In this document: piece by piece, positions 5,249 through 61,839 of the stretch
Layout of the letters: the number at the start of each line of letters is the position of its first letter
Position numbering within the stretch: position 1 is the stretch's first letter
Assembly: GCA_010672585.1 (NCBI GenBank)
Contig: JAAHGF010000021.1
Span: forward strand, 1-64,000
DNA: 64,000 nt
Source: Okeania sp. SIO1I7
GTDB taxonomy: Bacteria > Cyanobacteriota > Cyanobacteriia > Cyanobacteriales > Microcoleaceae
Direction of reading: 5' to 3'
Translations under genes and position numbers: made by a program
The notes under the pieces: generated by a model
What the model saw: only the letters and a program-made list of their open reading frames with translations
What the model was told of the DNA's origin: nothing
The model's database searches: none

Positions 5249-6451
5249 ATGTTATCAAAATTTCTCAAATTGATTAACTGGAAAAATTTTAATACATTTA
5301 TATTATTAACATTTACCTGGATAGTTATACCTCTATTTTTGGTAGAAATTGTGATGATTGTTTTGGAGCCATATCTATTTAAAGGTCTCTATCAATACGA
5401 TTCAGATTTAGGATTTAGAGTACGACCTTATATTAATGGAAATAATCAATTTGGTTTTAACGATAGAGATTATCCTTTACAAAAAGACCAGAATAAATTT
5501 CGATTATTAGTAGTTAGTGATTCGTTTAATTGGGCTGGTGGAAAAGAGGGAAATTATACGGCTTTGTTGGAGAAAAAATTTGAGAATTATTATGGCAAAC
5601 AGCAAGTTGATGTGATTAATGTTGGCTATCCAGGAACTCATACTGGCGAACAATTAGCTATGTTGAAAAAGTACGGGTTGCAATATAATCCAGATTTGGT
5701 AGTATTGGGTTTTTTTGTTGGTAATGATTTTCGAGATGCTGACCCAGAAAGAAAACGAATTATTGTCAATGGCATCTATATAGATATAGATAAGGAAGAT
5801 GAATTAATTATTTTTGGTTATCCGATTATTGGTAGGTCTAGATTGTTGATGTTTTTACAGCAAAAATATCAAGTTTACCAAGAATTACAAAGGGCTAAAC
5901 AGGATTCTGCTCAGTTATCTAGTAGTTCTCTAGTCGCTAGTTTAAATTTAGCATCAGCTCCAATTATTGAACGGGAAAAGTCACCGGGAATTTTATCTGA
6001 AAAAGCTTTTCTGCGGGTAGAAAAAAGTAGGCTCAAGTTTTGTAAGATTAGAGATTTATTTGAGGGTAAGCGAGACGATAATATTAACTATATTTTTCAG
6101 AGTATTTCAGAAATGCAAAAATTACTACAATCTCGGAACATTGACTTTATTGTGGCAATTTATCCCGATGAATATCAAGTTAATGATGAATTATTGAATG
6201 ATATTTTTGCGGAATATGATGATTTGAAGCGAGAGTCTTATAATGTGACTTGTCAGCAAGAGATTTTAATCAAGTTTTTAGAGGCTAATGGTATTCCTTA
6301 TATAGAGATGTTAGATAAATTTAGAATAGAACAAAAAAATCGTCCTTTATACTTACTGAGGGAACCTCATTGGAATAGTGCTGGAAATTTATTAGCTGCG
6401 GATATTTTATTCGATTATTTGAAGAAGGAAGAAGTAAGAAGGAAAAAGTAA
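5249..6451 (+). CDS. Membrane-anchored SGNH-fold protein, subfamily A
   Basis: 400 residues, function not assigned. One N-terminal membrane segment (about residues 17-38) is followed by an SGNH/GDSL-type domain. Block I is VVSDSFNWAGG with the nucleophile Ser92 (SDS instead of the usual GDS), the Gly block is NVGYPG (124-129), the Asn block is VGND (157-160), and the C-terminal block is EPHW (372-375) followed by NSAGN. A xHW block with Asp or Glu two residues before His resembles AlgX/AlgJ-type O-acetyltransferases. The likely role is esterase or acyltransferase action on an envelope glycan; this is inference. Its best relative here is the protein at 12,516-13,580. The last nine residues (KKEEVRRKK) are encoded by a GAAGGA-type minisatellite that also provides the stop. 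Confidence 0.8.
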   Translation: MLSKFLKLINWKNFNTFILLTFTWIVIPLFLVEIVMIVLEPYLFKGLYQYDSDLGFRVRPYINGNNQFGFNDRDYPLQKDQNKFRLLVVSDSFNWAGGKEGNYTALLEKKFENYYGKQQVDVINVGYPGTHTGEQLAMLKKYGLQYNPDLVVLGFFVGNDFRDADPERKRIIVNGIYIDIDKEDELIIFGYPIIGRSRLLMFLQQKYQVYQELQRAKQDSAQLSSSSLVASLNLASAPIIEREKSPGILSEKAFLRVEKSRLKFCKIRDLFEGKRDDNINYIFQSISEMQKLLQSRNIDFIVAIYPDEYQVNDELLNDIFAEYDDLKRESYNVTCQQEILIKFLEANGIPYIEMLDKFRIEQKNRPLYLLREPHWNSAGNLLAADILFDYLKKEEVRRKK

Positions 6452-6588
6452 GAAGGAAAAAGTAAGAAGGAAAGTAAATGAGTCTATATAATGTGTAATT
6501 AATTTTGTTTTCTGGCTTAGTTATTAATATCAAATTCCCTTAATTCGGTCTCAAACATTTTTTGATCTTCAGCTATTGCCAAATATTT

Positions 6589-7569
6589 CTAAATTTTCTG
6601 CTTTCCTAACTCCTGTACGGGCGAATTGCCATTCGCCCCTACTTCTGAATTATTGTCTAATACTTTATCTGATTTAGCCAAATAAATTCCCGATAATACT
6701 AATACAAATGTCAACCCATTTAAGAAACTCAATTCTTACTCAAAAATTCCCCAGGCTAAGAATGCCGCAATAATCGGTTCCAACAACAGAATTAGAGAAA
6801 TAAACCCAGATGAAAATTGTTTTAAACTATAAAATAATATACCCCATCCAATTAAGCCACACAAAATCCCTAGACCAATAACAGCTAACCATCCAGAAAG
6901 GGAAACTGGTAATAATCTATCTTCAAATAGCAATGCAAATGGTAACAATAATAGGCAGCTTAAACAGCTATCCCATATTAAAATTGTAGTTGTTTTAAAT
7001 TTAACTCGGAGATGCTCTACTACCAAAATTGACCCAGGGTAGAAAATGGCATAAACTAATGCCATAGTGTCTCCTATCAATGTATCTTTAGATAGGTGAA
7101 AGTCTTGAAAGGCAATTATTCAACTTCCTCCTAGAGCTAGAATTGTACTAATTAAAAAGCGACTACCAAAAGATTGACTTAACAGTAACCACCCACTCAA
7201 AACAGCAAATATAGGAGTTGTATTGTGGAGGAGATTAGAGTTAGCAACGGTTGTTTTTGTCAGAGACCATGCCCAACTTACTAGACAAATTATATCTAGA
7301 ATAGCAACAATAAATAAGTAGAAAAAATCCTTGATAGTATAAGTTTATTGAGTATTAATGAATGAGCGATCGCTCTGTTTATCCCAAAGTATTTTAATAC
7401 TATTTCCTAGAATTAAAGCTAGACTGGTAATCCAAAAGCGATTAAATATTGTTGCATAAGCACCTAACTCATTTTCACTAATACGAGTTAGAATTGGGGA
7501 AATTGATAGAGTAATAACAGCAATTCCTAAGAAGGTAATTGACAAAATTGGGGATTCTTTAGTTAACAC
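6589..7569 (-). pseudogene. EamA/DMT-family permease pseudogene
   Basis: The minus-strand translation gives a ten-helix drug/metabolite-transporter-like protein of about 326 codons, within the family's usual length. The reading frame is continuous from the ATG at 7,569 to a terminal TAG at 6,589, but it contains three in-frame stops: TAA at 7,345-7,347, TGA at 7,120-7,122 and TAA at 6,736-6,738. The segments after each stop are still recognisable (LDIICLVSWAW, GILCGLIGWGILFYSL, LTFVLVLSGIYLAKS). There is no frameshift, so decay looks recent and by point mutation only. Whether any product is made by readthrough cannot be told from sequence. Confidence 0.85.
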
Positions 7570-7785
7570 TATAAACTTCCTTAATAACTATATCTAATTC
7601 TGTTACTCGACTCTCATTTGAACAGACCATAAACAAAATTGATAGTCATAATTTTCTTGGGAAAACCCCTCTCCATATCCATATAAGGAGAGAGGTAGAA
7701 TTAACTCAGACTAATAAGTTTATTTTAAAATATAAGGTAAGGTAAATCACTACTTTCCCTTTGAAAAATTATTAATTTCTTAAAA

Positions 7786-8214
7786 ATGGATATATCAATA
7801 AGAATGTCTGTCGATGTAAAATTCAAAACACTTAGAGAACTATGGAGGAAAGAAATAGATAGTATATATTTAGACAAAAAAACTTCTTGCATTAAAGAAT
7901 TTTATGATATTTTTTCCGCTGAAATACAAGAAGCTATATCTGATAAATTATTTATCACAATAGAAACCGACCCTAAAGACAAAAACATTTTTTGTAGAAT
8001 CTACGGACATATTGACTTTGATTTCTCTTTTGATGACGAATTTATAGATAAAGAATTTAAAGATGAAGAAGATGAATTAAATTTCTATATTGAAGAGTGT
8101 TTTTGTCAGCAAGTTCTAGAAAACAATTACCACACCTACCAAAACGAAAATCTTAGATATGAAATTAAGAATAGGGAGGGTAAAGTCTTAGCACGTTTTA
8201 GCTACGCTGTTTAA
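7786..8214 (+). CDS. Hypothetical acidic protein
   Basis: 142 residues, not recognised. The protein is soluble, very acidic in its middle (FDDEFIDKEFKDEEDE) and ends VLARFSYAV. No signal peptide, membrane segment or known motif is visible. It starts with ATG about 215 bp downstream of the divergent EamA pseudogene and has no co-directional neighbour close by. Codon use and base composition are like the surrounding genes, so it is probably a real gene, but no function is offered. Confidence 0.55.
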   Translation: MDISIRMSVDVKFKTLRELWRKEIDSIYLDKKTSCIKEFYDIFSAEIQEAISDKLFITIETDPKDKNIFCRIYGHIDFDFSFDDEFIDKEFKDEEDELNFYIEECFCQQVLENNYHTYQNENLRYEIKNREGKVLARFSYAV

Positions 8215-8681: not shown

Positions 8682-10490
8682 CTAATTACCTGATAAAACA
8701 CTAAGATTTTGACCATTCTTATTAACTATATGAACACCAGGAATTTGATAAAATTTAGCAGTATCTGTATCTAATGCCCAAGCTTTAACATTAAGATTTC
8801 CTTGGGGAAATTTATGGGTAGATAATACCTTTTGCCATCCTGACTTAAAGTATTTTTGACTCTTAAATTCTTTCACCAGATAAGGTCTTGATATTGTCAT
8901 ATCTGCCACAGCAGAAACAATAGATTCACCTTGAGAATTGTCATAACTCAAAACAATGGCATCTACAGGTAAACCCGTATCAGTAAATATTGCCCAACCA
9001 GTCGCTAGTAAATTATTACCACCAATGAATTCTAACTTCTCAAAAATACCTTTTACTTCTCTCTCATTATTAGTATCTACAAGGTCTTGAATACGATTAG
9101 TTTGAATTAAACCAGGATGTAAAAAACCCATTTCTGTTAAGTAACGCGCCCGCTGTCTGTGAGATTCAAAATAGTAAGAATCAATCAAATTTTGGCAGTT
9201 ATCGTGAGTAAAATTAATGAGTAATAAACATCCTTTATATTTCAAATAATTTTGTCGCCATGATTGCATCTTTTCTATACTGTAGGTAAAATTGTGTATT
9301 TGCAGAACAGTTATTATCCCAAGAAACCAGCAAATTATTTTTGAGAATAGGCTTCTATTAATTAACAAGTATTCTTTTTTTCTCCAATCCTCCCCCACAA
9401 TTATCATTAAATGAATTATGGAGATAATTAGATAAGTGGAAAAGGTTGTATATCTTGAGGAAAGTGCTTGTTCTATACCAAATGAAACTCTACCAAAGGA
9501 TGTAACTAAGGCACTAATAATTGTATATGAACCAAGCATAATCCAACCAATGGTTTGAGACCGAATTTGATGGTCTTTAATCTGCCATAATACATAAGAA
9601 CATAAACAAATAAATAGAGTAATAGTTATTGAGCCAAGAATAATTGAATTATTGAGAGGTTGTATACTACTACCTATACCAAGAGCAGTACCTATAAATG
9701 CTAGAAAATATTGAAATATTTGATCTGGATATTGAATAGATTCTACTGGATTAGGGTGAGATAATGGCTTTTGATAATCATAAAAATATAAGGCTATATT
9801 TGCGATCAATCCAATTATCCAGAGGATATATAATTTGATATTTTTTAGTATATCTGACCAAGATTTGAGTTTGGCTAAAGCTAAAACTGGTAAAACAATT
9901 ACCCAGGCTAATAAACCATTAGCATAAGAGAAAGTGCTGATGGTTGCCAATAACATACAAATTAAAAATTTCGCTGTATTATTCAGTCGAGAATAAGCAA
10001 TTAATATACAGGTAGTAATACAAGCGATGGGAATAAAAACAACTATTTGGATACCCCATAACCAATTTTCATATTGCACGGCAGAAAATATAAAAATATT
10101 AGATACTAATGCTATAGTCAGACTTTTGATAGAGGAGGTATTAATTGTTAATCGATTTAAAAGATAAATATTTACAGCAACTATACAGGCAAGTAAAAAT
10201 ATGACTAACATTTCATATCTAATATTCCATTTTGTCAGAAATGCTAGGGCAATAAAAATTAGTCTGGGGAAAAATTTTCTGCTTTCATTATGCTGTGCCA
10301 TTAAATCGCTGAAAGACAAAGTTCTGGTATTAACTTTTTCAAAAATAGCAGAAATTTGCCATTGGTCTTGAATCGGTACATTCAAACTATACTTAAGAAT
10401 AAGAATTCCCAGAACTATAGCTGGAATTATCGCTAAACATAGGTTTATTCCTAAAACTAATTTAGAATGAATACGTTGCATATTTATCAA
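8682..10490 (-). CDS. Polytopic membrane protein of unknown function
   Basis: 602 residues. The N-terminal ~400 residues hold about ten hydrophobic helices; the first is near residues 12-32 and is followed by a loop with DQWQISAIFEK and QHNESRKFFPR. The C-terminal ~190 residues are soluble, with a beta-rich tail (WAIFTDTGLPVDAIVLSYDN) ending in VNKNGQNLSVLSGN. The layout resembles large polytopic glycan or lipid-carrier membrane proteins (GT-C-like), but no catalytic motif is recognised, so this is only a resemblance. An in-frame ATG three codons downstream (MQRIHSK) is an equally good start. The gene lies between SGNH genes and may belong to the same envelope-related set. Confidence 0.7.
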   Translation of the reverse strand: MINMQRIHSKLVLGINLCLAIIPAIVLGILILKYSLNVPIQDQWQISAIFEKVNTRTLSFSDLMAQHNESRKFFPRLIFIALAFLTKWNIRYEMLVIFLLACIVAVNIYLLNRLTINTSSIKSLTIALVSNIFIFSAVQYENWLWGIQIVVFIPIACITTCILIAYSRLNNTAKFLICMLLATISTFSYANGLLAWVIVLPVLALAKLKSWSDILKNIKLYILWIIGLIANIALYFYDYQKPLSHPNPVESIQYPDQIFQYFLAFIGTALGIGSSIQPLNNSIILGSITITLFICLCSYVLWQIKDHQIRSQTIGWIMLGSYTIISALVTSFGRVSFGIEQALSSRYTTFSTYLIISIIHLMIIVGEDWRKKEYLLINRSLFSKIICWFLGIITVLQIHNFTYSIEKMQSWRQNYLKYKGCLLLINFTHDNCQNLIDSYYFESHRQRARYLTEMGFLHPGLIQTNRIQDLVDTNNEREVKGIFEKLEFIGGNNLLATGWAIFTDTGLPVDAIVLSYDNSQGESIVSAVADMTISRPYLVKEFKSQKYFKSGWQKVLSTHKFPQGNLNVKAWALDTDTAKFYQIPGVHIVNKNGQNLSVLSGN

Positions 10491-12515: not shown

Positions 12516-13580
12516 ATGAAAAGATTTTTTTCGATCCTCCGTCAAACAGCAATTATTTCTTTAATAACTTTTGGCTTAACAGAAGTCACATTCAGAATTT
12601 ATCACAAAATTAATCCATCTTTTATGTTTTACGACCCCTCATCTTATAATCGTTGGCGTGGGAAACCATTATCTACAGATTATGATTTCCAATTAAATTC
12701 TCGAGGATTTAAAGATGTAGAATTTAGCAAACAAAAAGCAGAAGGTACATATAGAATTCTGGGTATAGGTGATTCTTTTGCTTATGGAGGTATTCCCTAC
12801 AAACATAATTTTCTAACTCTATTGGAGTCAAAACTTAATCAAGATAGTCGGCAACCAATAGAATTAATAAATATGGGTATAATTGCTATTGGGCCGAAAG
12901 ATTATTTATCCCTATTAGTGAATGAAGGATTAGAATTAAATCCTGATATGGTGTTGTTATCTTTTTACGTCGGAAATGATTTTTCTGATAACTATAAGTC
13001 ACAACAAGACCGGAGATTACTTAAAGTTCAAGATTCTTACGTTTTCTCATTTTTTTATTTCCTAATTAAGGTGAATAGTAAGTTTGAAGGTAATCTTTAT
13101 CATCATAATATTGAGTATCGAGAAGATTTACCTACTGTACCTGATGACTTTCATCTGGAAGAGGCAAAAAAGAGGAGTTATATTTTTTTCAAAAATCCTG
13201 AAGAAACTGAATTTAAAGAACATTTTAATGATGCTTTGGGCGACTTATTAAAAATCAAAGAAATCTGCGATCGCAGAAATATTACTTTAGTCGTAGTTTT
13301 AATGCCTGATGAAGTACAAGTTATCAAAGAATTAAGAGATAAAGTAGTTGCTAGTTACAATTTTACTCCTGATAAATTTGATTTTCGACAACCTAACAAA
13401 TTATTATCTCAAGCACTTATCAGAAATAATATATATTATCTTGATATTGTTGAAGAGTTTGTGACTGCGGGTACTCAAACTCCTCTCTACAAACCTAATG
13501 ATATTCATTGGAATATTGCTGGTAATAGATTAGCTGCTGAAGTAATAGATAAGTATCTCTCTGAAGAATTTTTTCAGTAG
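12516..13580 (+). CDS. Membrane-anchored SGNH-fold protein, subfamily A
   Basis: 354 residues. The N-terminal membrane anchor is about residues 9-28. SGNH blocks: GIGDSFAYGG with Ser87, the Gly block INMG (118-121), YVGND (151-155), and C-terminal NDIHWNIAGN with Asp329 and His331. The D-x-H-W arrangement is that of AlgX/AlgJ-type acetyltransferases and their relatives. The catalytic set looks complete, so this is probably an active esterase or O-acyltransferase acting outside the cytoplasmic membrane; the substrate is unknown. Relative: the protein at 5,249-6,451. Its promoter and first 34 codons are copied several times upstream, so it may have several alternative promoters. Confidence 0.85.
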   Translation: MKRFFSILRQTAIISLITFGLTEVTFRIYHKINPSFMFYDPSSYNRWRGKPLSTDYDFQLNSRGFKDVEFSKQKAEGTYRILGIGDSFAYGGIPYKHNFLTLLESKLNQDSRQPIELINMGIIAIGPKDYLSLLVNEGLELNPDMVLLSFYVGNDFSDNYKSQQDRRLLKVQDSYVFSFFYFLIKVNSKFEGNLYHHNIEYREDLPTVPDDFHLEEAKKRSYIFFKNPEETEFKEHFNDALGDLLKIKEICDRRNITLVVVLMPDEVQVIKELRDKVVASYNFTPDKFDFRQPNKLLSQALIRNNIYYLDIVEEFVTAGTQTPLYKPNDIHWNIAGNRLAAEVIDKYLSEEFFQ

Positions 13581-13971: not shown

Positions 13972-15462
13972 TTAATTATTAATTATTAATTGTTGAATCC
14001 TACCTTTTCGCTCATTCCCCGTTTCTCCTGTCTCCTGTCTCCTGTCTCCTAACTCTACTGATTGATTTTGATTTGGAGCAAGTATATTAAAGATTGAATT
14101 AGCTATATATTCAGACAAAATATTTTCTCCAGCTTTCGTGTAATGACAGCAACTATCAATATAAACTATCTCTTTGGCATTATCTAAAATATTCACACCA
14201 TTGAAAATATTCACACCATTCTGTTTTAAATCATCTATCTTACTAAAAAGCACTGGATACCCCAATTCTGTTGCTTCTTTAAAAGGAGTATCAGAGTCAA
14301 AAGCAATTTTCTTTTCTGCTTCACTGTAAATTCTATTAGTGGGATAATATTGATTTGGCTGTAGAACATGAAAATATAAAATATTATTATTAGCAGTAAT
14401 TTGCTTCATCATTATAGATGCTTTTTTCCAATGTTCTGCCATAGTCTCATATAATTCTGATTTTTCTAGTTGAGGAGATTGTGCATAGAAATAAACGATA
14501 CTAGCTTCAGTTTCTCCCGCAGCTTGTTGAGCTGCTTTTTTCCTTTCTTTATCAAATATTTTGACATTTTTGCGATAGGTCGTTGCTAGGTTTTGTACAT
14601 AAATTGATGTCAAGGCATAACAGTAAGCTACTTGACACTTATCTAAAGTTTCTAAAGCATCTTTCAATTTACCTTTACTGTCGTTAATTTTTAACATTGC
14701 TCTAATAGATTTTGTCGAGAGACTATTATTCGCTATGTTGGTTAATGGCACAACATGATTGGTACTTGGCATCATAATATCAATATTATTTTTATTGTTT
14801 GCTTTTGCCAAAATCACCTCATTAAACCCATCTATATTGATGAGCATATCAAATTCTTGACCGATGGAGAGAAAGTAGTTTAATAGTATTAATTGTTGCG
14901 GTTGTTTATAGCCTCCTGTGGCAAAAGACAAGATAATAAATTCCTTATCTTTAAGTTCTGGAACTTGCTTTAATTTATCGACCAAAATTTGATTCTGAAT
15001 TTCATATATTGAATAATTAGAAGCAACCGAACCACCAAAAACTCCGATTATATATTGATTGTCACTCTTTTTTTGATAGGGATAATCATAAGGAGAAATA
15101 AAACCAGCAGCATTGTATTTAAACCCTTCTCTAAAATCTGGTCCTGGTTTTTGAACATAGCCAAAGTAAGGATGCAGTCTTTCTATTACAGAGTCTTCTA
15201 ACCTAATTCCTGCTAAATTTATTCCCATCATATTGGTATTGACATTAGCATTATTATTTTCATTTTCTATTTGATTTTCCTGTTCCTCTTCTTGATTGGT
15301 TTCTGCTACCTTTTCTCTTGTGTAGAAAAATTGCTTATACCTGATAAAATACCAAGCCAAAGAACCTAATTCCAAAAAGATAAATAGCAAAATTATGTTA
15401 ATCAAAATAATTTTCCATAGTTCTTTGGAATCTTTGAACATACCCAATTTTTTCATAGTCAT
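13972..15462 (-). CDS. Membrane-anchored SGNH-like protein, subfamily C
   Basis: 496 residues. One membrane segment (about residues 17-40) is followed by an Asn/Glu-rich linker (about 54-78) and an SGNH-like domain. Block I reads GVFGGSVASNY with Ser145, so the usual GDS is GGS. The other conserved blocks are NIDGFNE in the middle and DSCCHYTKAGE near the C-terminus, where His follows Asp by four residues. Its paralogue is at 19,543-20,895, with the same FYTRE, FGGSVA and CCHY signatures. The last ~25 residues (after NQNQSVELG) have no counterpart in the paralogue and are encoded by low-complexity repeats and a heptamer run. Function is unknown; it is an envelope-located hydrolase or acyltransferase-like protein by fold inference. 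A second ATG two codons in is an equally likely start. Confidence 0.75.
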   Translation of the reverse strand: MTMKKLGMFKDSKELWKIILINIILLFIFLELGSLAWYFIRYKQFFYTREKVAETNQEEEQENQIENENNNANVNTNMMGINLAGIRLEDSVIERLHPYFGYVQKPGPDFREGFKYNAAGFISPYDYPYQKKSDNQYIIGVFGGSVASNYSIYEIQNQILVDKLKQVPELKDKEFIILSFATGGYKQPQQLILLNYFLSIGQEFDMLINIDGFNEVILAKANNKNNIDIMMPSTNHVVPLTNIANNSLSTKSIRAMLKINDSKGKLKDALETLDKCQVAYCYALTSIYVQNLATTYRKNVKIFDKERKKAAQQAAGETEASIVYFYAQSPQLEKSELYETMAEHWKKASIMMKQITANNNILYFHVLQPNQYYPTNRIYSEAEKKIAFDSDTPFKEATELGYPVLFSKIDDLKQNGVNIFNGVNILDNAKEIVYIDSCCHYTKAGENILSEYIANSIFNILAPNQNQSVELGDRRQETGETGNERKGRIQQLIINN

Positions 15463-17121: not shown

Positions 17122-18351
17122 CTACTGACTCCTGACTCCTGTGAAATCATACATTTTGCACAAATAATTTGACATTATTTCCCCCACAAATTTATGACCT
17201 TCTATATTCCAATGACCTCCACAAGGTTCTGCATTATCAAATCCATATAAACACTTACCTGTTTTTTGCGCTTCATCTACTAATGGTCCAGATAAAATAT
17301 AAACCGGAATATTTTCTTGTTTGCCAAACGCTTCTATTCTCCGGTCTGGATAATATAAATCTGACAAATTATGAGAATTTTTAAATTTTTCACGGTGTTC
17401 CAAACTGGGATGCACCTGATGAGAATCACTAACTGCAATTAACATAAAATCTCCATTCTTTTCATAGACTTCATCCCTCATTAACCGAATTAAATCTTCC
17501 GTTACTTTCCAAGCTTGATCCCAGTCAGAATTTGATTCAGGTTTTCGATAAAAAGAAACAATAGTTTTGCCATAATCATTTAAAAATTGACGTGGTTTAG
17601 CATCCATATCAACTTTTCTAATTAGCTGTAAAATCCGAAAATTTCTCACTAACCAAATTGGTAATATATCAACCATTGAAAAAACATAACGACCTCTTGA
17701 CCAAGGTTTCATTGTCCGGAATGACATATCTAATTCTAACTGACCATTTTTATAGAAAAAATAAGGTCTAAGATGATCGTGGTCTAGAGGACGATAATTA
17801 TTACGGAGGTCATTACCAGCATAAAAAGCTAATATTACTAAATCTGGTGCATAATCCCAAACATGATGTCTTAAAGTCATCAATTCTTGAGCTGTTCCAT
17901 AACCCTGTACGCCAAAATTCATTACCTCAACTTTTCGGTCTTTCAAGACAGGACATTGTTGTAATTTTTGCTCCATAATTGCACCATAAGTATCCTCCAA
18001 TTTGACATGAAATGCTTCTGTAAAAGAATCTCCTAATAAAGCAATTCTTAATCCATTTTCAGGTTTAGTTTTACTACGTTGATAATCACGAAACCCTCCA
18101 CTATTCATTTTTAATTCTGAAGGTATACCTTCTCCTTTCCAAAATGCTGTAGCATTAGGATTTCCTGCCCAACCTCGATTTGGATCTTTAGTAGTATATA
18201 GAGATTTATTTTCTGATTTTTCATCTGTTCTGGGTGGTGGGGGATATGCAATTCCTAATATTCTTAATCCTACTTCTCCCACTATCACAGCAAATATAAA
18301 TGTAACTATTGTTATTCCTATATTTACTGCTAAATTTTGTCTGTTTTTCAT
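17122..18351 (-). CDS. Membrane-anchored SGNH-fold protein, subfamily B
   Basis: 409 residues. The N-terminal membrane segment is about residues 8-30, followed by a PPPP linker. Block I is ALLGDSFTEAF with Ser109, the Gly block is NFGVQGYG (145-152), and the Asn block is AGND (178-181). The C-terminal block is GGHWNIEGHKF with His380. The residue two before this His is Gly, so the usual catalytic Asp is not in its normal place; a distant Asp may serve, or the protein may work as a Ser-His dyad. Its closest relative is at 21,631-22,851, and about 320 bp of the two genes are nearly identical. The predicted location is anchored and periplasmic or extracellular. Confidence 0.82.
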   Translation of the reverse strand: MKNRQNLAVNIGITIVTFIFAVIVGEVGLRILGIAYPPPPRTDEKSENKSLYTTKDPNRGWAGNPNATAFWKGEGIPSELKMNSGGFRDYQRSKTKPENGLRIALLGDSFTEAFHVKLEDTYGAIMEQKLQQCPVLKDRKVEVMNFGVQGYGTAQELMTLRHHVWDYAPDLVILAFYAGNDLRNNYRPLDHDHLRPYFFYKNGQLELDMSFRTMKPWSRGRYVFSMVDILPIWLVRNFRILQLIRKVDMDAKPRQFLNDYGKTIVSFYRKPESNSDWDQAWKVTEDLIRLMRDEVYEKNGDFMLIAVSDSHQVHPSLEHREKFKNSHNLSDLYYPDRRIEAFGKQENIPVYILSGPLVDEAQKTGKCLYGFDNAEPCGGHWNIEGHKFVGEIMSNYLCKMYDFTGVRSQ

Positions 18352-19542: not shown

Positions 19543-20895
19543 CTAATTTTTCTCTTGATTCTCCATTACATTTTTGATGGAATTAGCAACAAAATTTTCT
19601 AATATTGTATCTCCAAGAAAATTATAGTGGCAGCAAGCATCTCGATAAACTACTTCTTTTTCTTCATCAAAAATATTCACACCATTAAATATATTGACCT
19701 TCGCTTCTCGTAACCCACTAATCTTAGAAAATAACATGGGATAACCTTTTTTTACTCCTGTTGAATAAGGATGTCCTTCAATAATTAGAACCTTTTCTTC
19801 CGGGCTAAAAACTCTTTCAGTAGGATAATATTGATTGGGTTGAATAAAGTGAAAATACCATTTATTTCTCTCGGCTAAAATATGACTCATTGTTAGTGAT
19901 GATTCATACCAATTTTCTGCTATCTTCTCAAAAGCTACCTCATCTTCTAATACTTCAGGCATCTTATTCAAATATACTAGACTGTCACTATCAATATTTT
20001 GAGAATTTCGAGCTATCTGTTGATCGTATTTAATAATCTCTTTTTGATAGCTTTCTAATAATCCTTTTACTTGCAAACTTCTCAAACTATGACACGAAGC
20101 TAGTTGACAACTTTCTAACTTATTAATAGCAGTTGATAAATTATGTTTCAGTTCGCTAATTTGAACAATTGCCTTCATTACAGACAAATCATCACTAGCT
20201 AACCTTGTTAAAGGTAAAATATGCTGTATGCTTGGCAGAGTTAATTTTATTTTTGCTTGATTATTTTGATGAGATAGAGCTACTTCATTAAAACCATCTA
20301 TATTGATAACCATATCAAATTCTTGGCCGATAGAAAGAAAATAATTTAAAATCAATAATTGCTGTGGTTGTTTATAACCTCCCCCCGAAAAACATAGGAT
20401 GATTATTTCTTTATCTGCTAACTCAGGTATAGTTTTTAAGTTATTGATAAATTCTTCATTACCTCTGGATTGATTAATGTTCAGACCGACGGCAAAATTA
20501 TTCGCAACTGAACCCCCAAATATACCAATAATAAATTGATTCTTATTGTTTTTAATAAAAGGATAATTGTACTGAGAGACAAAACCATAATTATTAATTC
20601 TTATTCCCGATTCTTCATGGGTAAAACTTCCTGCTTTTAGTACATAGCCAAAAAACGGATGTATTCGCTCTAGTATTGATTCATTATTTAAATCTGCACC
20701 CAGTCTGGTTCCAGTTTTTTCCAAGTCTTCTCTTACTTTGGAAATAGTATTTTCTCTCGTATAAAATAGTCTATTTTCCTGAGAATAATAAAAACCTAAT
20801 GATACAATCTCTAACCCTATAAATCCTAAAACTAAGTTAATAGTAACTAGACTGAATCCTGTTTTGATTCCTTGTATCCATTTAAAATTTTTCAT
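19543..20895 (-). CDS. Membrane-anchored SGNH-like protein, subfamily C
   Basis: 450 residues. The membrane segment is about residues 15-37, followed by FYTREN. The SGNH-like domain has GIFGGSVANNF (Ser129), NIDGFNE, QPNQYYPTERVF and the C-terminal DACCHYNFLGD. All these signatures are shared with 13,972-15,462, so the two are paralogues separated by one subfamily B gene. The GGS variant of the nucleophile motif and the CCHY block are features of this subfamily. No enzymatic activity is assigned; the anchored topology and the fold suggest work on an extracytoplasmic substrate. Confidence 0.78.
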   Translation of the reverse strand: MKNFKWIQGIKTGFSLVTINLVLGFIGLEIVSLGFYYSQENRLFYTRENTISKVREDLEKTGTRLGADLNNESILERIHPFFGYVLKAGSFTHEESGIRINNYGFVSQYNYPFIKNNKNQFIIGIFGGSVANNFAVGLNINQSRGNEEFINNLKTIPELADKEIIILCFSGGGYKQPQQLLILNYFLSIGQEFDMVINIDGFNEVALSHQNNQAKIKLTLPSIQHILPLTRLASDDLSVMKAIVQISELKHNLSTAINKLESCQLASCHSLRSLQVKGLLESYQKEIIKYDQQIARNSQNIDSDSLVYLNKMPEVLEDEVAFEKIAENWYESSLTMSHILAERNKWYFHFIQPNQYYPTERVFSPEEKVLIIEGHPYSTGVKKGYPMLFSKISGLREAKVNIFNGVNIFDEEKEVVYRDACCHYNFLGDTILENFVANSIKNVMENQEKN

Positions 20896-21630: not shown

Positions 21631-22851
21631 TTACCTTTTGCTTAATTGAGTAGTATATCGTTCACACAAATAATTTGTCATTATTTCTCCTACAAATTTA
21701 TGACCTTCTATATTCCAATGACCTCCACAAGGAACCGCATTATCAAAACCATGCAAACATTTACCCGTTTTTTTTGCTTCATCCCAAATAGGTCCTGCTA
21801 AAGTATAAACTGGTATATTTTCCTGTTTACCAAACTTTTTTAATCGGATATCTGGATAGAATAAATTTGGTACATTCAAAGATTTTCTAAATCCATCACG
21901 CTTTTGAATATCCGGTAAAACTTGATAAGAATCACTGGTTGTTATTACCATAAAATCTGCCCCTTGATCATATACTTCATCCCTCATTAGTTTGATTAAA
22001 CCTTCAGTGACTTTCCAGGTTTCTTCCCAATCTGAATTTGGTTGTGGTTCTTTGTAAAAAGCTAGATTAATTTCACTATAATCTTTTTCAAACTGACGGC
22101 GTTTAGCATCAATATCTACCTTTCTAATTAGTTGTAAAATCCGAGAATTTTGCACAGACCAAAATGGTAAGAAATCTACTAGAGAAAAATTATAACGGTC
22201 TCTATCCCAAAATTTTAAATCGCGGAATGACATATCTTCAACAAGTTGACCATCTTGGTAAACAAAATAAGGTCTGAGATGATCGTGTTCTAAAGCGCGA
22301 TAATTATTACGGAGGTCATTACCAGCATAAAAAGCTAATATTACTAAATCTGGTGCATAATCCCAAACATGATGCCTTAAAGTCATCAATTCTTGAGCTG
22401 TTCCATAACCCTGTACGCCAAAATTAATTACCTCAACTTTTCGGTCTTTCAAGACAGGACATTGTTGTAATTTTTGCTCCATAATTGCACCATAAGTATC
22501 CTCCAATTTGACATGAAATGCTTCTGTAAAAGAATCTCCTAATAAAGCAATTCTTAATCCATTTTTAGGTTTAGTTTTACTACGTTCATAATCACGAAAT
22601 CCTCCACTATTCATTTTCAGATCAGAAGGTATGCCTTCTCCTGTCCAAAATGATGTTTGATTCGGATTTCCTGCCCAACCTCTATTCGGATCTTTTGCTG
22701 TATATAAAAGTTCTTGATTAGATTCTTCTCTTGGTGGTGGAGGTGTTTCTATTTTTGCTATTCTTAAACCTATTTCTGCCACTGTTACAGCAAATATTAA
22801 TGTGCTGACTGTTAATCCTAAATTGATGGCTAAATTCTTAAATTTTTTCAT
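21631..22851 (-). CDS. Membrane-anchored SGNH-fold protein, subfamily B
   Basis: 406 residues from the ATG at 22,851. An upstream in-frame start at 22,902 would add 17 residues not found in the paralogues, so MKKFKNLAINLG is preferred because it aligns with MKNRQNLAVNIG of the gene at 17,122. Membrane segment about residues 8-30, block I ALLGDSFTEAF with Ser107, AGND block, and C-terminal GGHWNIEGHKF. As in its paralogue, Gly replaces the usual Asp two residues before His. Positions 22,298-22,616 match 17,792-18,110 with only about five differences, while the flanks differ far more, which indicates gene conversion. Confidence 0.82.
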   Translation of the reverse strand: MKKFKNLAINLGLTVSTLIFAVTVAEIGLRIAKIETPPPPREESNQELLYTAKDPNRGWAGNPNQTSFWTGEGIPSDLKMNSGGFRDYERSKTKPKNGLRIALLGDSFTEAFHVKLEDTYGAIMEQKLQQCPVLKDRKVEVINFGVQGYGTAQELMTLRHHVWDYAPDLVILAFYAGNDLRNNYRALEHDHLRPYFVYQDGQLVEDMSFRDLKFWDRDRYNFSLVDFLPFWSVQNSRILQLIRKVDIDAKRRQFEKDYSEINLAFYKEPQPNSDWEETWKVTEGLIKLMRDEVYDQGADFMVITTSDSYQVLPDIQKRDGFRKSLNVPNLFYPDIRLKKFGKQENIPVYTLAGPIWDEAKKTGKCLHGFDNAVPCGGHWNIEGHKFVGEIMTNYLCERYTTQLSKR

Positions 22852-23025
22852 TATATAAAGGTTAGTTGAGCAAGAAATTATTCTTAGTTTGAGTATTGAC
22901 AATAAGTTAAGTTAAAAACTAAGTTACATATAGTACCTGAAAGTATCAACAATTGGGGTAATTTTCTAATTTCTGGAGATACAGTAGAGAAACTTTTTTC
23001 AGTCATATCAAATTCTAATAATTAC

Positions 23026-24347: not shown

Positions 24348-25550
24348 CTATAACCCCTGACATAACTTTTCAGCAATAATTTCACCTGCCAACTTATGTC
24401 CTGTAGCATTCCAATGTCCCGTACACATTGTCGTATTTTTAAACCCATGAAAACAAACAGGATTTTCCCGAACATAATTATCAAAAGGTTCCACTAAATC
24501 AATCACAGAAAAATTATGAGTTTCTCCTAAACTTTTCAGTCTTTTTATTGGATATGACCAGTCTTTAATATTCATAATTTTCATATATCCTTCTCGCCAT
24601 TCTTGATTTGGATGAACTTGCATCGGAGTCATCACTGTAGCTATTCTAAATTCTGCACCTTTTTCTTGTACTTCTTTTGCCATAGTTCCGATTAGTTCAT
24701 CAGTAATTTTCCAAGCTTCTTGCCAAGCAGAATTTGGCGGTTCTCTAAAATTATTTGCTTGTAAATTTTCAAAATGTCTAGCAGCATTTCTTTTCCTTTG
24801 GTCTGCTTCTACTTTTTTGATAATTTGTAAAATTCTGACATTATTTACTAGCCAAGTTGGTAATTTATCAACTGTAGTAATCATGTAGCGGTTTGCTTGA
24901 CTAATAGTTAGCTGTCTAAAAGATAAATCTAATTCTAACTTCCCATTTTCATAAACAAAAAAAGGTCGATAATGATTATTTTCTAACTGTCGAGAATTAT
25001 CCGTAACATCATTGCCCATAAAAAAAGCTAAAAGCACAATATCCGGCTGAAAATCCCAGACTTTTTCTCGGAGAGTTAATAATTGTTGGGCTGTACCATA
25101 ACCATCCACTCCAAAATTAATTACTTCTACTTTTTGACTTTTTAAATCGGCACATTTTCCCAATTCCTTCTCCATTACTGCCGCAAAAGTTTGCTGATAA
25201 GAAACCTGCACTGCTGAAGTAAAAGAATCTCCAAGTACAGCAATTCTTAGAGTATTTTCTGGTTTTGCCTTAGTAATTTCCGGTCCTCTAAGACCATGAC
25301 TATTAAACTCTAAATAAGCCTTCCCTTCACTCGTCCACCAACCAGAAACATTTCCTCCATATTCCCAACCTCTAACCGGATGAGGAATAGTATGAAACGT
25401 AGGATAAAATTCTGCGTGGGTACTTTCAGGCATTTTTTTTAAACCCTCCAAACCAGCAATTCTTACCCCTACTTCAGCGACCGCTATTCCTACGAATAAA
25501 CTGGCAAAAGTCATGGCTATATTTACTGCCCAAGTTTTTAACTTTATCAT
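24348..25550 (-). CDS. Membrane-anchored SGNH-fold protein, subfamily B
   Basis: 400 residues. Membrane segment about residues 8-30, then a linker with HTIPHPVRGWEY. SGNH blocks: AVLGDSFTSAV with Ser109, NFGVDGYG, MGND and the C-terminal TGHWNATGHKL. It is clearly homologous to the genes at 17,122 and 21,631 but more diverged, and it shows no trace of the recent conversion tract. The residue two before the His is Thr, again not Asp. Predicted extracytoplasmic esterase or acyltransferase-like protein with unknown substrate. Confidence 0.82.
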   Translation of the reverse strand: MIKLKTWAVNIAMTFASLFVGIAVAEVGVRIAGLEGLKKMPESTHAEFYPTFHTIPHPVRGWEYGGNVSGWWTSEGKAYLEFNSHGLRGPEITKAKPENTLRIAVLGDSFTSAVQVSYQQTFAAVMEKELGKCADLKSQKVEVINFGVDGYGTAQQLLTLREKVWDFQPDIVLLAFFMGNDVTDNSRQLENNHYRPFFVYENGKLELDLSFRQLTISQANRYMITTVDKLPTWLVNNVRILQIIKKVEADQRKRNAARHFENLQANNFREPPNSAWQEAWKITDELIGTMAKEVQEKGAEFRIATVMTPMQVHPNQEWREGYMKIMNIKDWSYPIKRLKSLGETHNFSVIDLVEPFDNYVRENPVCFHGFKNTTMCTGHWNATGHKLAGEIIAEKLCQGL

Positions 25551-26665: not shown

Positions 26666-26830
26666 TTAAAACAAAGTATAAATAAACGGAGCAATTACAG
26701 AAGATTGACTCAGAACAATCAAAGCTCCTAACAAAACTAAAGTAATAATCAAAGGCAATAACCAATATTTTTTCCGCTCTCCCATAAAACCCCAAAGGTC
26801 TTTGAGAACGTCTAATATTCCTTCAAACAT
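26666..26830 (-). CDS. DUF5989/SxtK-like small membrane protein
   Basis: 54 residues: MFEGILDVLKDLWGFMGERK, then KYWLLPLI and a single hydrophobic helix (about residues 25-41) ending in APFIYTLF. Length and the pattern LxDLWxFMxxRKKxWLxP match the DUF5989 family, which includes SxtK of saxitoxin clusters. The ATG immediately follows the TAA stop of the SxtJ-like gene (TAAATG), so the two are almost certainly co-transcribed and translationally coupled. Members of this family commonly sit beside O-carbamoyltransferases. The molecular function is unknown; it is probably a membrane partner of the carbamoyltransferase. Confidence 0.88.
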   Translation of the reverse strand: MFEGILDVLKDLWGFMGERKKYWLLPLIITLVLLGALIVLSQSSVIAPFIYTLF

Positions 26831-42987: not shown

Positions 42988-44079
42988 TTAATTATACTGC
43001 TGCAAAATAACTGCAACTTCTGGCATAGACAATAACTTTTCATACAATACATTAGCAATAAATTCATTACCAGATACAGAATAATGGCCATTACCGCCCA
43101 AGAAAGCAGTTTCTACTTGTTCATTAGGCATTCTCTTTCTAAATTCAGCAATTAAATCAATATAAATTATGTTTCGTTTTTCTAATTCAGCCTGTAGATA
43201 TTGTCGCCAAAAACTAGATTCATTCAGATAATAGTCAGAATATATTGGTAAATAAACAACCACTAATTTACTATTTTTCCCTTGATTGATCTTCGCCAAC
43301 TCTTCAAATATTTTGACAGCTATGGCAGGAGTTTGAACAACATATTTATTGCCAGTTTCCATTTTTCTAGGAAACAATGTTTGCCATAGATTTAAAAATC
43401 TTAACTCCTGGATATATCTACTACCTTCTGTAATTTTTGGAGCTAAAAAAGAACCTCTAGGCACAGGAAAATTATGATTAACTAACTCTCCATTTTCTAA
43501 AGACAATAATGGTTTCCCATAACCCAGAGACTTTGCCCGCTGCATCCGCACAAAATCATCAGTAATAAAAGCAAATATCTGAATGTTATGCTCAAACTTA
43601 GTACCATCACGTTTGTACCATAAATAAACTTGGTCAACACCATATCCCCCTTGACCCATATTCATAGTTTGTAAACGTTGATTGATAGATGTTAATAGTT
43701 GACACCATGTTTGGTCATTACTAACACCCCATCCCATTGTAAAAGAATCCCCAGAACAAATTATCCTAACTTTATTAGGGGGAATATTAATACTAAAGTC
43801 TTCGCTATTTCTGAAAGATTGAGAATTTGTCCGAAAATATATCCCCTGACCATACATATTTGGAATATTAACATTAGGAAGATTCACCCACCCTAATAAT
43901 TCATCATATTCAGTGTGACGTATTTCACTCATTGGTTGAATTTTACTGATTTTATAAAACAGCAAAAGAATGCTAGATAGACCTTCAACCAAACTTAATA
44001 TAGACAAACATAAAATTAGATTAATTGAGACAACTTTGAGGATTTTTTTTGTCTGACGTAAAGCATTTTTGAGCATCAA
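42988..44079 (-). CDS. Membrane-anchored SGNH-fold protein, subfamily D
   Basis: 363 residues. Same architecture as its tandem neighbour: membrane segment about residues 16-41, DELLGWVNLPN, IICSGDSFTMG with Ser112, NMGQGGYGVDQVYLWYKRDG, and C-terminal GNGHYSVSGNEF. Here the residue two before His is Asn (GNGHY) where the neighbour has Asp (GDGHY), so one copy differs at a potential catalytic position. Substitutions are spread along the whole length, consistent with an older duplication. Predicted extracytoplasmic; the substrate is unknown. Confidence 0.84.
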   Translation of the reverse strand: MMLKNALRQTKKILKVVSINLILCLSILSLVEGLSSILLLFYKISKIQPMSEIRHTEYDELLGWVNLPNVNIPNMYGQGIYFRTNSQSFRNSEDFSINIPPNKVRIICSGDSFTMGWGVSNDQTWCQLLTSINQRLQTMNMGQGGYGVDQVYLWYKRDGTKFEHNIQIFAFITDDFVRMQRAKSLGYGKPLLSLENGELVNHNFPVPRGSFLAPKITEGSRYIQELRFLNLWQTLFPRKMETGNKYVVQTPAIAVKIFEELAKINQGKNSKLVVVYLPIYSDYYLNESSFWRQYLQAELEKRNIIYIDLIAEFRKRMPNEQVETAFLGGNGHYSVSGNEFIANVLYEKLLSMPEVAVILQQYN

Positions 44080-47759: not shown

Positions 47760-49508
47760 TCAACGTGGCCAAGAAATCCCAGAACTAGCAGCAATATAAC
47801 GAGCTACAGCAGCAGCACCGTAACGATTTAGATGACTGGGGTCAAAGAAATATTCATTTTTGGCGAGTTGAGGCTGATATAAATTGAAATTTAGGAATCT
47901 AAAGCCATTTTCTCTTGCCCGACTTAGCATCCATCTATGAAAGTCTTCTTCCGCAGACCAACGCACAGAATCTAAATAACTATCAGATAGAGGTAAATTA
48001 ACAAAGACTAAAGGAATATTGCGAGATTTAGTAAAATTAACAACAGAAGTTAAAGCTGTAGCCTGAGTACCCCCAAGATAAAAACCAGCATAGTCGCCAT
48101 CATAAAGCCCTGCTACATAAGGTCGTCGCTGATAATAATAGGAAGGATTAAATCGCCCATCCATTGGCAGAAACCCATTAGCATCAATAGCATTAGCAAC
48201 ATCGGCGATCGCTACTGTTTGTAAAGGTTGAGTAGAATATCGAGGATGAGATGTTAAGTTTGAGGAGTTTTGCGACAGAGGTTGATAAGAATATTGGGTA
48301 GTCTTAAAATAGTCAGGATAAAGATTATTAGAACTATTCCCTACCCCGGTATTCCCTATGTTGCTGCGCGTTCCCTCTGTTGCTGCACGTTCCCATAGCA
48401 AAGTTTCCTCACCTGGTTCCGACCGCTTGGGTCTGTCGCTGACGCGGGGTCGTACCGCTGTTGTCTGTTCCCTATAATTAATTTCCATTGCTTCCCCTCG
48501 CGATATCTCAAAAGGAGAATAGGGAGGTGCAAATACGTTATAAGGTTTGGGAAACTGATAACAGGTAGAAGCAAAGTTAGACTGACCTTTAGGTAACTGG
48601 GGACGAACACCAGAAAGTAATTTTCTTTTTCCCTCAGAAGCAACAATTGAATTATAAGTTCGATCTACCCGTCCACTATTAAAAGCTCGTACTCCATCCG
48701 CCCAAATAATTAATTTTGGCAGTTGATTATTACTCAAAAGTTGTCGCAGTTGAAAGTCTACTACTTTAGCAGTGGCCCCATTGATGCTAAAGTTAAATAT
48801 GTTTAACGGACGATAGCCTTTAGCTACTAGATATTGTTGTAGTTGTTGCGGATCGACCCCGTATAAAGCGCGGGAACTACCCACAATTAAAACATCTGGC
48901 GGACCAACAGTAGCAACGAAAGACATATAAAGCTCTAACTGGGTGTCGAGAACATCACTATTGAAGGAAACAGGATTATACTGAGAACGTGCAGAAGCTG
49001 CTTGTTGTTGGGAATAAGCTAAATTTCTCATATACTCAGCAACTTTTTTTTCAGCAAAAGCACGTCTGGGGTTTCCTGGCGGTACAGCTTGCATCCAAGC
49101 GACTGCCTGTACCCATTCTTGGGCGACTTTATCCCACTGTTGTTTAGTTCTCGCGGTCTGAGCTAACTGTGAGGCTTTTGTGGCAAACCTAACTGCTTGA
49201 CTAAACGGGTCTACAGAAGCACATTGAGTAGCATTGGAATTTTGGGAGACTAGAGAAATTTGTGAGTTATTTTCTTTGACGGAAATGAAATCACAGTTAT
49301 TAACTGATATAAGATTTTTCTCTGAGGTAGAAGATATTTTGCTTTGAAACTTTTGAGTGGGAATACATCCAACAGTTAGGGTTAGCAAAATAGTTGCCGT
49401 CAAAGATTTAAGTAAGCTAGATAAAAGTCTAGTACTATGGAATTGATTTTCTATATTCTGTTGCTCACTGCGTTCAACAGTGGCATCGGATGAATGGATT
49501 CTAGTCAC
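47760..49508 (-). CDS. DUF1574-like SGNH lipoprotein with in-frame repeat insert
   Basis: 582 residues. A signal segment ending LTLTVGC suggests lipid attachment at a Cys near residue 48. A helical region follows (KQQWDKVAQEWVQAVAWMQA), then the SGNH domain: VLIVGSSRALYGVDPQQL (nucleophile in GSSR), FNFSINGATAKVVDFQLRQL, KLIIWADGVRAFN and the C-terminal FFDPSHLNRYGAAAVARYI with the classical D-x-x-H. This matches cyanobacterial DUF1574 proteins. Residues about 342-388 (TTAVRPRVSDRPKRSEPGEE and onward) are encoded by a GC-rich repeat also found at 47,360-47,690, inserted in frame between structured segments. Probable outer-membrane or periplasmic esterase; the insert may be tolerated as a loop. 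Confidence 0.8.
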   Translation of the reverse strand: MTRIHSSDATVERSEQQNIENQFHSTRLLSSLLKSLTATILLTLTVGCIPTQKFQSKISSTSEKNLISVNNCDFISVKENNSQISLVSQNSNATQCASVDPFSQAVRFATKASQLAQTARTKQQWDKVAQEWVQAVAWMQAVPPGNPRRAFAEKKVAEYMRNLAYSQQQAASARSQYNPVSFNSDVLDTQLELYMSFVATVGPPDVLIVGSSRALYGVDPQQLQQYLVAKGYRPLNIFNFSINGATAKVVDFQLRQLLSNNQLPKLIIWADGVRAFNSGRVDRTYNSIVASEGKRKLLSGVRPQLPKGQSNFASTCYQFPKPYNVFAPPYSPFEISRGEAMEINYREQTTAVRPRVSDRPKRSEPGEETLLWERAATEGTRSNIGNTGVGNSSNNLYPDYFKTTQYSYQPLSQNSSNLTSHPRYSTQPLQTVAIADVANAIDANGFLPMDGRFNPSYYYQRRPYVAGLYDGDYAGFYLGGTQATALTSVVNFTKSRNIPLVFVNLPLSDSYLDSVRWSAEEDFHRWMLSRARENGFRFLNFNLYQPQLAKNEYFFDPSHLNRYGAAAVARYIAASSGISWPR

Positions 49509-60846: not shown

Positions 60847-60891
60847 AACAAAAATACTTGATTATAATTAATTTCAAACTTAACTTTACCA

Positions 60892-60992
60892 GGACTTAGG
60901 CACTTTTTAAGTTCCAAACACTATATATCTATAACGTTATAGTTTTTTCTCACTAGACTAGATATTATAGATAGTGTTTTTTAGTAAAGCCC
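60892..60992. repeat. R5-like element in the urtA upstream region
   Basis: Ends AGGACTTAGG and AGTAAAGCCCT, with an internal AT-rich palindrome (CTATAACGTTATAG). It resembles the R5 elements at 23 and 35 kb. It lies 46 bp upstream of the urtA start and probably inside its promoter or leader; a TATAAT hexamer on the minus strand lies within it. Confidence 0.5.
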
Positions 60993-61086
60993 TCAGTATA
61001 GCCATCATTACTCAATAGTTGTCATTTTTGCCTTCTACTACTTCTTGCTAAGATTAGTTTAACTTTGATTTTAGCGTTTCTGAATT

Positions 61087-61839
61087 ATGAACAAAAACAA
61101 ACTGATAATTATCTGTTTATCAATAATTATATTAGTTTCAGTAGGGTTGAATTTCCTATTTTTTAACAGGGGCAGGAATTATTATTTACAATTAAATTCC
61201 CTACAATTAAATCCACTTGCTATCAAATTTTATCCTGTTGATGCTAATCCCAAAGAGACTAAAAATCCCAATCAAAAAAATATAGTTTTTTTTGGAGACT
61301 CTCGTGCCCGTGGTTGGAATTCACCTAAAGGTTTTGATGATTTTAATTTTATTAATCGAGGTATTTCTGGGCAAACTACAGCGCAAGTTTTAGGAAGATT
61401 GAATCAACATCTAATACCTTTATCTGCGGATATTGTGATAGTTCAAGTTGGTGTAAATGATTTATATAGAATTCCAATATTTCCTGAGAATAAAGAGACA
61501 ATTATTTCTGAGTGTAAATCAAATATCAAAGAAATTGTTAGGCAATCTCGTCAGCTTGGTGCTATTGTGATTTTGACAACTATTTTTCCTATTGCTGAAG
61601 TGCCACTTGAGAGAAAACTTTTTTGGTCGCCAGATATAGTAGTTACAGGAATTGAGGAAGTAAATGATTTTATTTATTCATTGGAAAACGAAGATGTAAT
61701 AATTTTTGATACAGGAGATATTTTAGTAAATCAACAAGGAAAAGTTAGGGAAGAATATAGTAGAGATTTTCTTCATCTTAATAGGGCAGGGTATAAAGCG
61801 TTGAATGAAAAATTAATACCTATTTTAAAAAGGTTATAG
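61087..61839 (+). CDS. GDSL/SGNH hydrolase family protein
   Basis: 250 residues. Short N-terminal membrane anchor (about residues 6-26). Compact SGNH domain: FFGDSRARGW with Ser72, GISGQTTAQVLGRL, VQVGVNDLYR and C-terminal SRDFLHLNRAGYKAL with the classical Asp-x-x-His. All four catalytic blocks are present, so this is the most conventional GDSL esterase of the window. It diverges from urtA with a 240-bp shared upstream region. Substrate unknown; probably lysophospholipase- or acetylesterase-like acting at the envelope. Confidence 0.88.
   Translation: MNKNKLIIICLSIIILVSVGLNFLFFNRGRNYYLQLNSLQLNPLAIKFYPVDANPKETKNPNQKNIVFFGDSRARGWNSPKGFDDFNFINRGISGQTTAQVLGRLNQHLIPLSADIVIVQVGVNDLYRIPIFPENKETIISECKSNIKEIVRQSRQLGAIVILTTIFPIAEVPLERKLFWSPDIVVTGIEEVNDFIYSLENEDVIIFDTGDILVNQQGKVREEYSRDFLHLNRAGYKALNEKLIPILKRL

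Follow-up and report, generated by a model that had tools for sequence, protein, structure and literature searches.

What joins eleven SGNH-fold proteins encoded within 64 kb of a cyanobacterial genome? The question is raised by contig JAAHGF010000021.1 of Okeania sp. SIO1I7 (Microcoleaceae; assembly GCA_010672585.1), of which we analyzed positions 1 to 64,000, referred to here as the window. The original prediction, made from these letters, described one large, diversifying set for O-acyl transfer or removal on envelope glycans. All eleven open reading frames (ORFs) are present, and Pfam, profile-profile, alignment and fold evidence supports their SGNH type. Nine of them (three B, two C, two A and two D copies) are linked to genes for an O-carbamoyltransferase of the NodU/TobZ type (CT), an SxtJ-family membrane protein and a DUF5989 microprotein (Table 1), while the genes at 47,760 and 61,087 are neighbors that we do not assign to the set. 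Judged from sequence, this suggests that the core is a single envelope-modification cluster of CT, SxtJ, DUF5989 and anchored SGNH proteins, in which the SGNH part has been multiplied. We consider it very probable that CT, SxtJ, DUF5989 and SGNH proteins form one functional module. That the module is a transmembrane relay, in which carbamoyl would pass on a DUF5989 tyrosine to the SGNH enzymes, is a reading we find evenly balanced.

A carbamoyltransferase, SxtJ and DUF5989 accompany the SGNH genes

Both NodU/TobZ domains were detected in CT using Pfam (Carbam_trans_N, E = 5.7e-125; Carbam_trans_C, E = 2.5e-76), and CT was the sole Carbam_trans_N match detected in the genome. Its relatives in the Protein Data Bank (PDB) include novobiocin carbamoyltransferase (9s2t), GdmN and TobZ. 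SxtJ (PF19588, 50.9 bits) and DUF5989 (PF19451, 89.6 bits) both scored above the Pfam cut-off, and the DUF5989 gene lies directly behind that of SxtJ. DUF5989 has a hydrophobic segment at residues 23-41 with Arg-Lys-Lys ahead of it; by the positive-inside rule, its tail is therefore predicted to be extracytoplasmic, on the side of the anchored SGNH domains. The locus is bounded by mfd (847-4,353) on one side and an NAD kinase gene (44,675-45,598) on the other. Past DUF5989, genes of the order B, B, C, B, C follow on the same strand and two A genes lie on the opposite strand; the D genes are upstream of CT.

To place this arrangement among order-level relatives, we searched 118 genomes, that of the window included. 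SxtJ was found in 71, C in 60 and the B profile (E ≤ 1e-8, A-type matches included) in 69. Sixty genomes held both SxtJ and a strong B match (E below 1e-85); the two shared a contig in 55/60 and lay within 3 kb in 53/60, so that the genes, far from being scattered singly, form a linked, diversifying, membrane-anchored set rather than housekeeping lipases, as had been proposed. In two of the seven genomes beyond 3 kb, SxtJ is near a contig end (G001, G028). B and C were no more than 10 kb apart in 50/57 genomes, with C usually adjoining B. Because these distances use hand-copied coordinates, in which each genome is represented by one or a few positions for B and for C, the last figure is an undercount; B and C stand side by side on further contigs in G004, G011 and G016. 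The order CT-SxtJ-DUF5989-SGNH was found in most Microcoleaceae examined. Microcoleus-type relatives have a compact CT-SxtJ-DUF5989-B-C-C locus with short gaps, preceded by DUF1574 and NAD kinase genes and followed by mfd (genome G045, locus L115); compared with it, the window is expanded by an extra B-C unit and a third B. D was found in nine genomes, from three genera, out of 59 that include that of the window, and just upstream of CT in G001, G003 and G034.

B copies 2 and 3 share 97-98% DNA identity over codons 83-162, which hold the Ser and Gly blocks, 92% over codons 163-202 (Asn block), 85% over codons 363-402 (His block) and 68-78% in the remaining 40-codon stretches. As near-identity is confined to the Ser-Gly core, gene conversion between the two copies is likely. 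Such conversion, the large spacers of the window, and the extra B copies of several relatives, some broken by internal stops, would all suit a region of tandem duplication whose genes are decaying or redundant and share no role. We regard this as extremely unlikely, since all nine A-D copies of the window are ORFs whose translations keep Ser and His, and the gene order is kept across genera.

Nine of the SGNH proteins form one extended family

In the Pfam scan, matches above the curated cut-off were ALGX for the genes at 5,249 and 12,516, Lipase_GDSL for those at 24,348 and 21,631 (the latter barely, at 23.7 versus 23.6 bits), DUF1574 for 47,760 and Lipase_GDSL_2 for 61,087. GDSL models were matched below cut-off by 17,122, 41,513 and 42,988, and no SGNH family was matched by the C pair (13,972 and 19,543). 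The C pair is SGNH by three other lines of evidence: C matches B in profile-profile comparison (96.7%, E = 3.8e-10), its Ser and His fall in invariant columns, and its predicted fold is SGNH-like. We folded C alone of the subfamilies; among the solved structures listed as matches to the AlphaFold 2 (AF2) model of 19,543, most are GDSL/SGNH esterases and hydrolases. Profile comparisons also found A-B and B-D homology across almost the full length. Of the six types originally distinguished, the DUF1574 and conventional GDSL genes stay separate, while on these comparisons A-D are one extended homologous family. The predicted N-terminal anchor was recovered as a hydrophobic segment above the Kyte-Doolittle threshold in ten of the eleven genes, 12,516 falling below it.

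We aligned 26 SGNH proteins, namely 22 from other loci (seven via the SxtJ-centred sample described below) and four from the window, covering B, C and D but not window A. The G-x-S of block I and the His of block V are invariant in 26/26, and Lipase_GDSL_2 matches 20/26 at E ≤ 0.05. The block III Asn is kept in B and C; in D of the window (41513-44079) and of Spirulina (L149, 10203-11345) it is Asp. At block V, C has D-x3-H and B lacks Asp at the usual place. PDB sequence searches found no clear relative of B (best E 0.081) or C (none at E ≤ 1). Below cut-off, D (41513-42595) and B copy 1 (24348-25550) had NF047474 and NF047475 as their best NCBIfam matches, SGNH families named for the Leptospira locus tags LA_2490 and LA_2486.

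The density of these genes exceeds chance: across the 9.48-Mb genome, the B profile (E ≤ 1e-3) matched eight places, seven of them within the window. The C profile found two full-length genes, both in the window, and three weak partial matches (B genes 17,122 and 21,631, and a 28-aa tail on another contig). The standard GDSL model matched seven places genome-wide, one of which is in the window (61,327-61,812).

The proposed O-acyl chemistry fared less well. Likeness to AlgX/AlgJ consists in the anchored SGNH domain and the ALGX match of A. That match covers positions 24-133 of 268 of the model, and the order of catalytic blocks in A-D is Ser before His, whereas AlgX has His before Ser; on both grounds, AlgX/AlgJ membership was rejected. 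MBOAT-dependent acylation was likewise rejected, as no MBOAT is on the contig of the window. All five MBOAT matches of the genome (L307 to L311) lie on other contigs, and at least one (L310) has an SGNH-like neighbor, as read by eye. A-D might still be O-acyl (acetyl) transferases served by these distant MBOATs, with the CT cluster a mere neighbor. The ALGX match, the presence of five MBOATs and the partnership of known SGNH transferases with MBOATs (excerpts of PMC12148441) favor this alternative, which we nonetheless hold to be quite unlikely: the ALGX match is partial, L310 shows an MBOAT with its own SGNH-like neighbor, and A-D are linked to CT, SxtJ and DUF5989 in many genomes. Since the partner that recurs is a carbamoyltransferase, together with SxtJ and DUF5989, and the MBOATs lie elsewhere, our guess leans toward carbamoyl rather than O-acyl transfer.

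DUF5989 ends in a conserved FxYxxF tail

The window DUF5989 ends in FIYTLF, an instance of FxYxxF. According to excerpts of PMC12148441, DltX and MBOATs use this hexapeptide as their acyl shuttle, which hands its group to an SGNH partner; the Tyr of the PatA hexapeptide (FIYANF in Neisseria) gets acetylated, and acetylated FIYANF donates to PatB. That text treats the acyl shuttle and does not contain "carbamoyl," nor does the SGNH review PMC9487903 contain "carbamo."

A DUF5989 profile search of genome contigs yielded at least 565 confirmed relatives, the best 80 of which were retained as loci. The motif count in these (80/80) is partly circular, as one search pattern held the tail, and tail statistics were therefore taken from a sample selected by SxtJ. 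Here, with nothing dropped, 56 of 61 DUF5989 proteins end in FxYxxF and four in [VL]xYTxF, and one is cut by a contig end. Among the 59 distinct tails left after dropping the cut protein (L252) and duplicates, W(-32), P(-29), P(-7), Y(-4) and F(-1) are invariant, F(-6) and I(-5) are each kept in 55/59, and positions -3 and -2 are more variable. An FxYxxF end occurred in 14 of 4,645 distinct six-frame ORFs of at least 100 aa in the loci, a set that includes many non-genes; all 14 are DUF5989 read from an early start. The five MBOATs of the genome end in FLYFQF, FLYFQF, YIYFDF, FIYFQF and FIYFEF, fitting [FY]xYxxF.

The trio is the core and SGNH genes are lineage-dependent neighbors

In 75 of the best 80 DUF5989 loci, CT was found within 6 kb and SxtJ within 1.2 kb. 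An SGNH gene was found within ~5 kb in 38 of the 80 (19 B, 19 other types), a count read by eye that includes opposite-strand genes and one fragment (L177). The variants at the trio include D after DUF5989 in Spirulina, A divergent from CT, and, on two Desulfobulbales contigs, C-like genes lying upstream of CT. GGST and GDS types occur at the trio in Prochloraceae, Prochlorococcus, Thiotrichaceae, Zooshikella and Pelagibacteraceae, and Granulosicoccaceae are also among the loci with an SGNH neighbor.

We also selected loci by SxtJ, which was present in 39 of 274 Gammaproteobacteria and in 93 of 296 genomes from the phylum of a Bacteroidia contig. We used 38 of the 39 gammaproteobacterial loci (the other, G125, was already counted as L186) and 40 of the 93 from Bacteroidota, the latter hand-picked down the score list and thus not random. 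CT was present in 38 and DUF5989 in 37 of the 38 gammaproteobacterial loci, with SxtJ re-found in 37; in the 40 Bacteroidota loci, CT was present in 34 and DUF5989 in 24. These counts indicate that CT, SxtJ and DUF5989 are the core and that SGNH is a lineage-dependent neighbor.

A possible carbamoyl relay

The gene linkage, the family identities, the FxYxxF tail and the conserved catalytic Ser and His are consistent with a relay of four steps. First, CT would make an activated carbamoyl in the cytosol, as NodU/TobZ-type enzymes do. Second, SxtJ and DUF5989 would move this group onto the tyrosine of the extracytoplasmic FxYxxF, a step modelled on the handling of D-alanine by DltB/DltX and of acetate by PatA, and the weakest of the four. 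Third, carbamoyl-tyrosine would unload onto the catalytic Ser of an SGNH protein anchored by its N-terminal helix. Fourth, and this is a guess, each SGNH subfamily might place the group on a hydroxyl specific to it, in a polymer or glycolipid that has been exported. Taken separately, a tyrosine shuttle as the role of DUF5989 seems to us as probable as any other role combined, carbamoyl as the group carried has a similarly even chance, and a glycan as the acceptor falls slightly short of that. Such a relay would give a testable role to SxtJ and DUF5989, families without known function. It would also join carbamoylation to the acyl-tyrosine shuttle principle and explain the accumulation of SGNH genes beside a carbamoyltransferase.

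Several observations weigh against this relay. Its weakest link is the route from cytosolic CT to a tyrosine on the outer face, which it leaves unexplained. SxtJ has no invariant His resembling that of MBOATs in a 45-row alignment, and a stand-in for the MBOAT His was rejected on this basis. PDB sequence searches found no clear relative of SxtJ (best E 0.53) or DUF5989 (none at E ≤ 10). DUF5989 and MBOAT tails align in register, with an unconvincing hhalign probability of 29%; homology was rejected as suggestive only, and, given the lack of a PDB relative for DUF5989, the resemblance of the tails may be convergent. B is far from SxtJ or on another contig in G066, G092, G094, G114 and G116. No SGNH was recognized in 42 of the best 80 DUF5989 loci, mainly of Crocosphaera type and Reyranella type (in the latter, an oxidoreductase-like gene comes after SxtJ, DUF5989 and CT), so an SGNH neighbor is not obligatory. 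Among the Bacteroidota loci, 16/40 had no recognized DUF5989 and 6/40 no CT. The gammaproteobacterial loci favor linkage: SGNH profiles matched 8/57 ORFs lying no more than 1.5 kb from the trio and 0/76 lying more than 3 kb away (Fisher p = 8e-4), though with seeds taken from DUF5989 neighbors, which biases the test toward near matches. In the 40 Bacteroidota loci, which count against it, the profiles matched 0/66 near and 0/105 far ORFs. Left out of this test were ORFs shorter than 240 or longer than 620 aa, those at a distance of 1.5-3 kb from the trio, and the L255 locus, in which the profile found no SxtJ.

An alternative is that CT acts at the inner face, adding carbamoyl to a lipid or a lipid-linked sugar, with SxtJ and DUF5989 recruiting CT and the SGNH proteins moving or trimming larger units outside. 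The PDB relatives of CT are natural-product carbamoyltransferases, enzymes that act directly on hydroxyls of soluble substrates, which favors this possibility. A further precedent is WapO, a putative carbamoyltransferase of the lipopolysaccharide core (excerpts of PMC8005017). The conserved FxYxxF would be left unexplained, and we judge inner-face carbamoylation decidedly improbable.

Comparison with known systems

The closest published arrangement is that of the saxitoxin genes sxtI-J-K-L, given in excerpts of PMC2679770 and PMC2684587 as a carbamoyltransferase gene, a 405-bp sxtJ, a 165-bp sxtK and a 1,278-1,281-bp GDSL gene, sxtL. The window DUF5989 gene is also 165 bp, and the likeness rests on this published order and these sizes. 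The window differs in having several SGNH copies and types. Genes of the I-J-K-L type are the sole sxt-like genes seen in it; a Pfam scan of 33 ORFs of the window revealed no sulfotransferase or other sxt-type tailoring gene, no dedicated sxt search of the genome having been made. Excerpts of PMC2684587 list sxtI, J, K and L among seven sxt genes common to Oscillatoriales, Lyngbya and/or Trichodesmium. In saxitoxin clusters, genes in this order act on a small molecule, which also counts against a carbamoyl relay.

SxtI is said to work with SxtJ and SxtK, and SxtL is proposed, without assay, to cleave carbamoyl (excerpts of PMC2679770 and PMC2684587). Extended to the window, this published view would make the SGNH proteins hydrolases, such as carbamoyl esterases, whose task is to remove or proof-read the CT product, with SxtJ and DUF5989 anchoring or assisting CT. 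The conserved catalytic Ser and His fit such a role, as do the nearest solved folds to the C model, mainly esterases and hydrolases. The nearest is the crocagin hydrolase CgnD (8a2n), which, in the excerpted account, slowly releases the peptide core; the crocagin cluster also holds a carbamoyltransferase, and related clusters do not. Hydrolysis would leave the DUF5989 FxYxxF tail unaccounted for and gives no reason for nine anchored copies of four types, and the Asp expected in block V is absent from B, although some SGNH esterases are known to work with a Ser-His dyad (excerpts of PMC9487903). We therefore consider hydrolysis rather unlikely, while giving it real weight.

The relay itself resembles DltB-DltX-DltD and PatA/PatB, which, according to excerpts of PMC12148441, combine an anchored SGNH protein with a C-terminal FxYxxF on a microprotein (DltX) or an MBOAT (PatA). 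In the cluster, CT and SxtJ stand in place of the MBOAT and the acyl-carrier or acyl-CoA supply, no MBOAT is present, and the group expected is carbamoyl. Somewhat tentatively, and at a little less than an even chance, CT-SxtJ-DUF5989-SGNH could be a third class of transmembrane group transfer beside MBOAT-SGNH and AT3-SGNH, spanning Cyanobacteria, Proteobacteria, Desulfobulbales and perhaps, with other terminal enzymes, Bacteroidota. If so, SxtK and SxtL would be relics of a relay machine recruited into a toxin pathway. The open-licence literature searched yielded no mention of DUF5989 or "SxtJ family," and the one paper in it naming both a carbamoyltransferase and an SGNH hydrolase appeared unrelated, judging by its title and the opening of its abstract.

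Layout of the window and neighboring genes

Table 1. Features of the cluster and of neighboring genes in the 64-kb window
Feature	Positions	Strand	Basis and remarks
O-carbamoyltransferase (CT; NodU/TobZ type)	32710..34752	-	likely start near 34638; Pfam domains, PDB relatives
SxtJ-family membrane protein	26831..27244	-	137 aa; 3-4 hydrophobic segments (hydropathy); PF19588, 2.8e-13
DUF5989/SxtK-like microprotein	26666..26830	-	54 aa; PF19451, 1.3e-25; one hydrophobic segment; C-terminus FIYTLF
SGNH subfamily B copy 1	24348..25550	-	PF00657, 5.9e-7, above cut-off
SGNH subfamily B copy 2	21631..22902	-	Lipase_GDSL; 97-98% nucleotide identity with copy 3, codons 83-162
SGNH subfamily B copy 3	17122..18351	-	GDSL models below cut-off; near-identity with copy 2 in core
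SGNH subfamily C copy 1 (GGS...CCHY)	19543..20895	-	profile match; AF2 model and structure comparison
SGNH subfamily C copy 2	13972..15462	-	C profile match
SGNH subfamily A copy 1	12516..13580	+	ALGX, 27.5 bits; A-B homology
SGNH subfamily A copy 2	5249..6451	+	ALGX, 32.3 bits; A-B homology
SGNH subfamily D copy 1	41513..42595	-	B-D homology; D just upstream of CT in three relatives
SGNH subfamily D copy 2	42988..44079	-	82% identical to D copy 1; B-D homology
Polytopic membrane protein	8682..10490	-	602 aa; no Pfam match at E ≤ 0.01; membership uncertain
DUF1574 SGNH-like protein	47760..49508	-	PF07611, 2.1e-10; syntenic neighbor near NAD kinase, outside module
Conventional GDSL esterase	61087..61839	+	PF13472, 8.4e-19; adjoins ABC transporter genes; outside module

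The 602-aa polytopic protein recurs next to A and C genes in several relatives of the same genus and of g7, and is possibly a glycosyltransferase that makes the acceptor. Genes for GTPase, solute-binding, WD40, nSTAND1 and TnpB proteins are interspersed among the parts of the locus and separate CT from its partners (28641-32415 and 37033-41459); a GTPase/solute-binding/WD40 set is found at the equivalent place in locus L134, and GTPase and solute-binding genes in L129. A stand-alone protein with the Mo-nitrogenase C-terminal domain (35549-35965; PF06967, 1.4e-37) adjoins CT and is also found in G002 (L110). Finally, the run of ABC transporter genes contains an ORF with no Pfam match (55785-56483), the start of which looks nucleotidyltransferase-like by eye.

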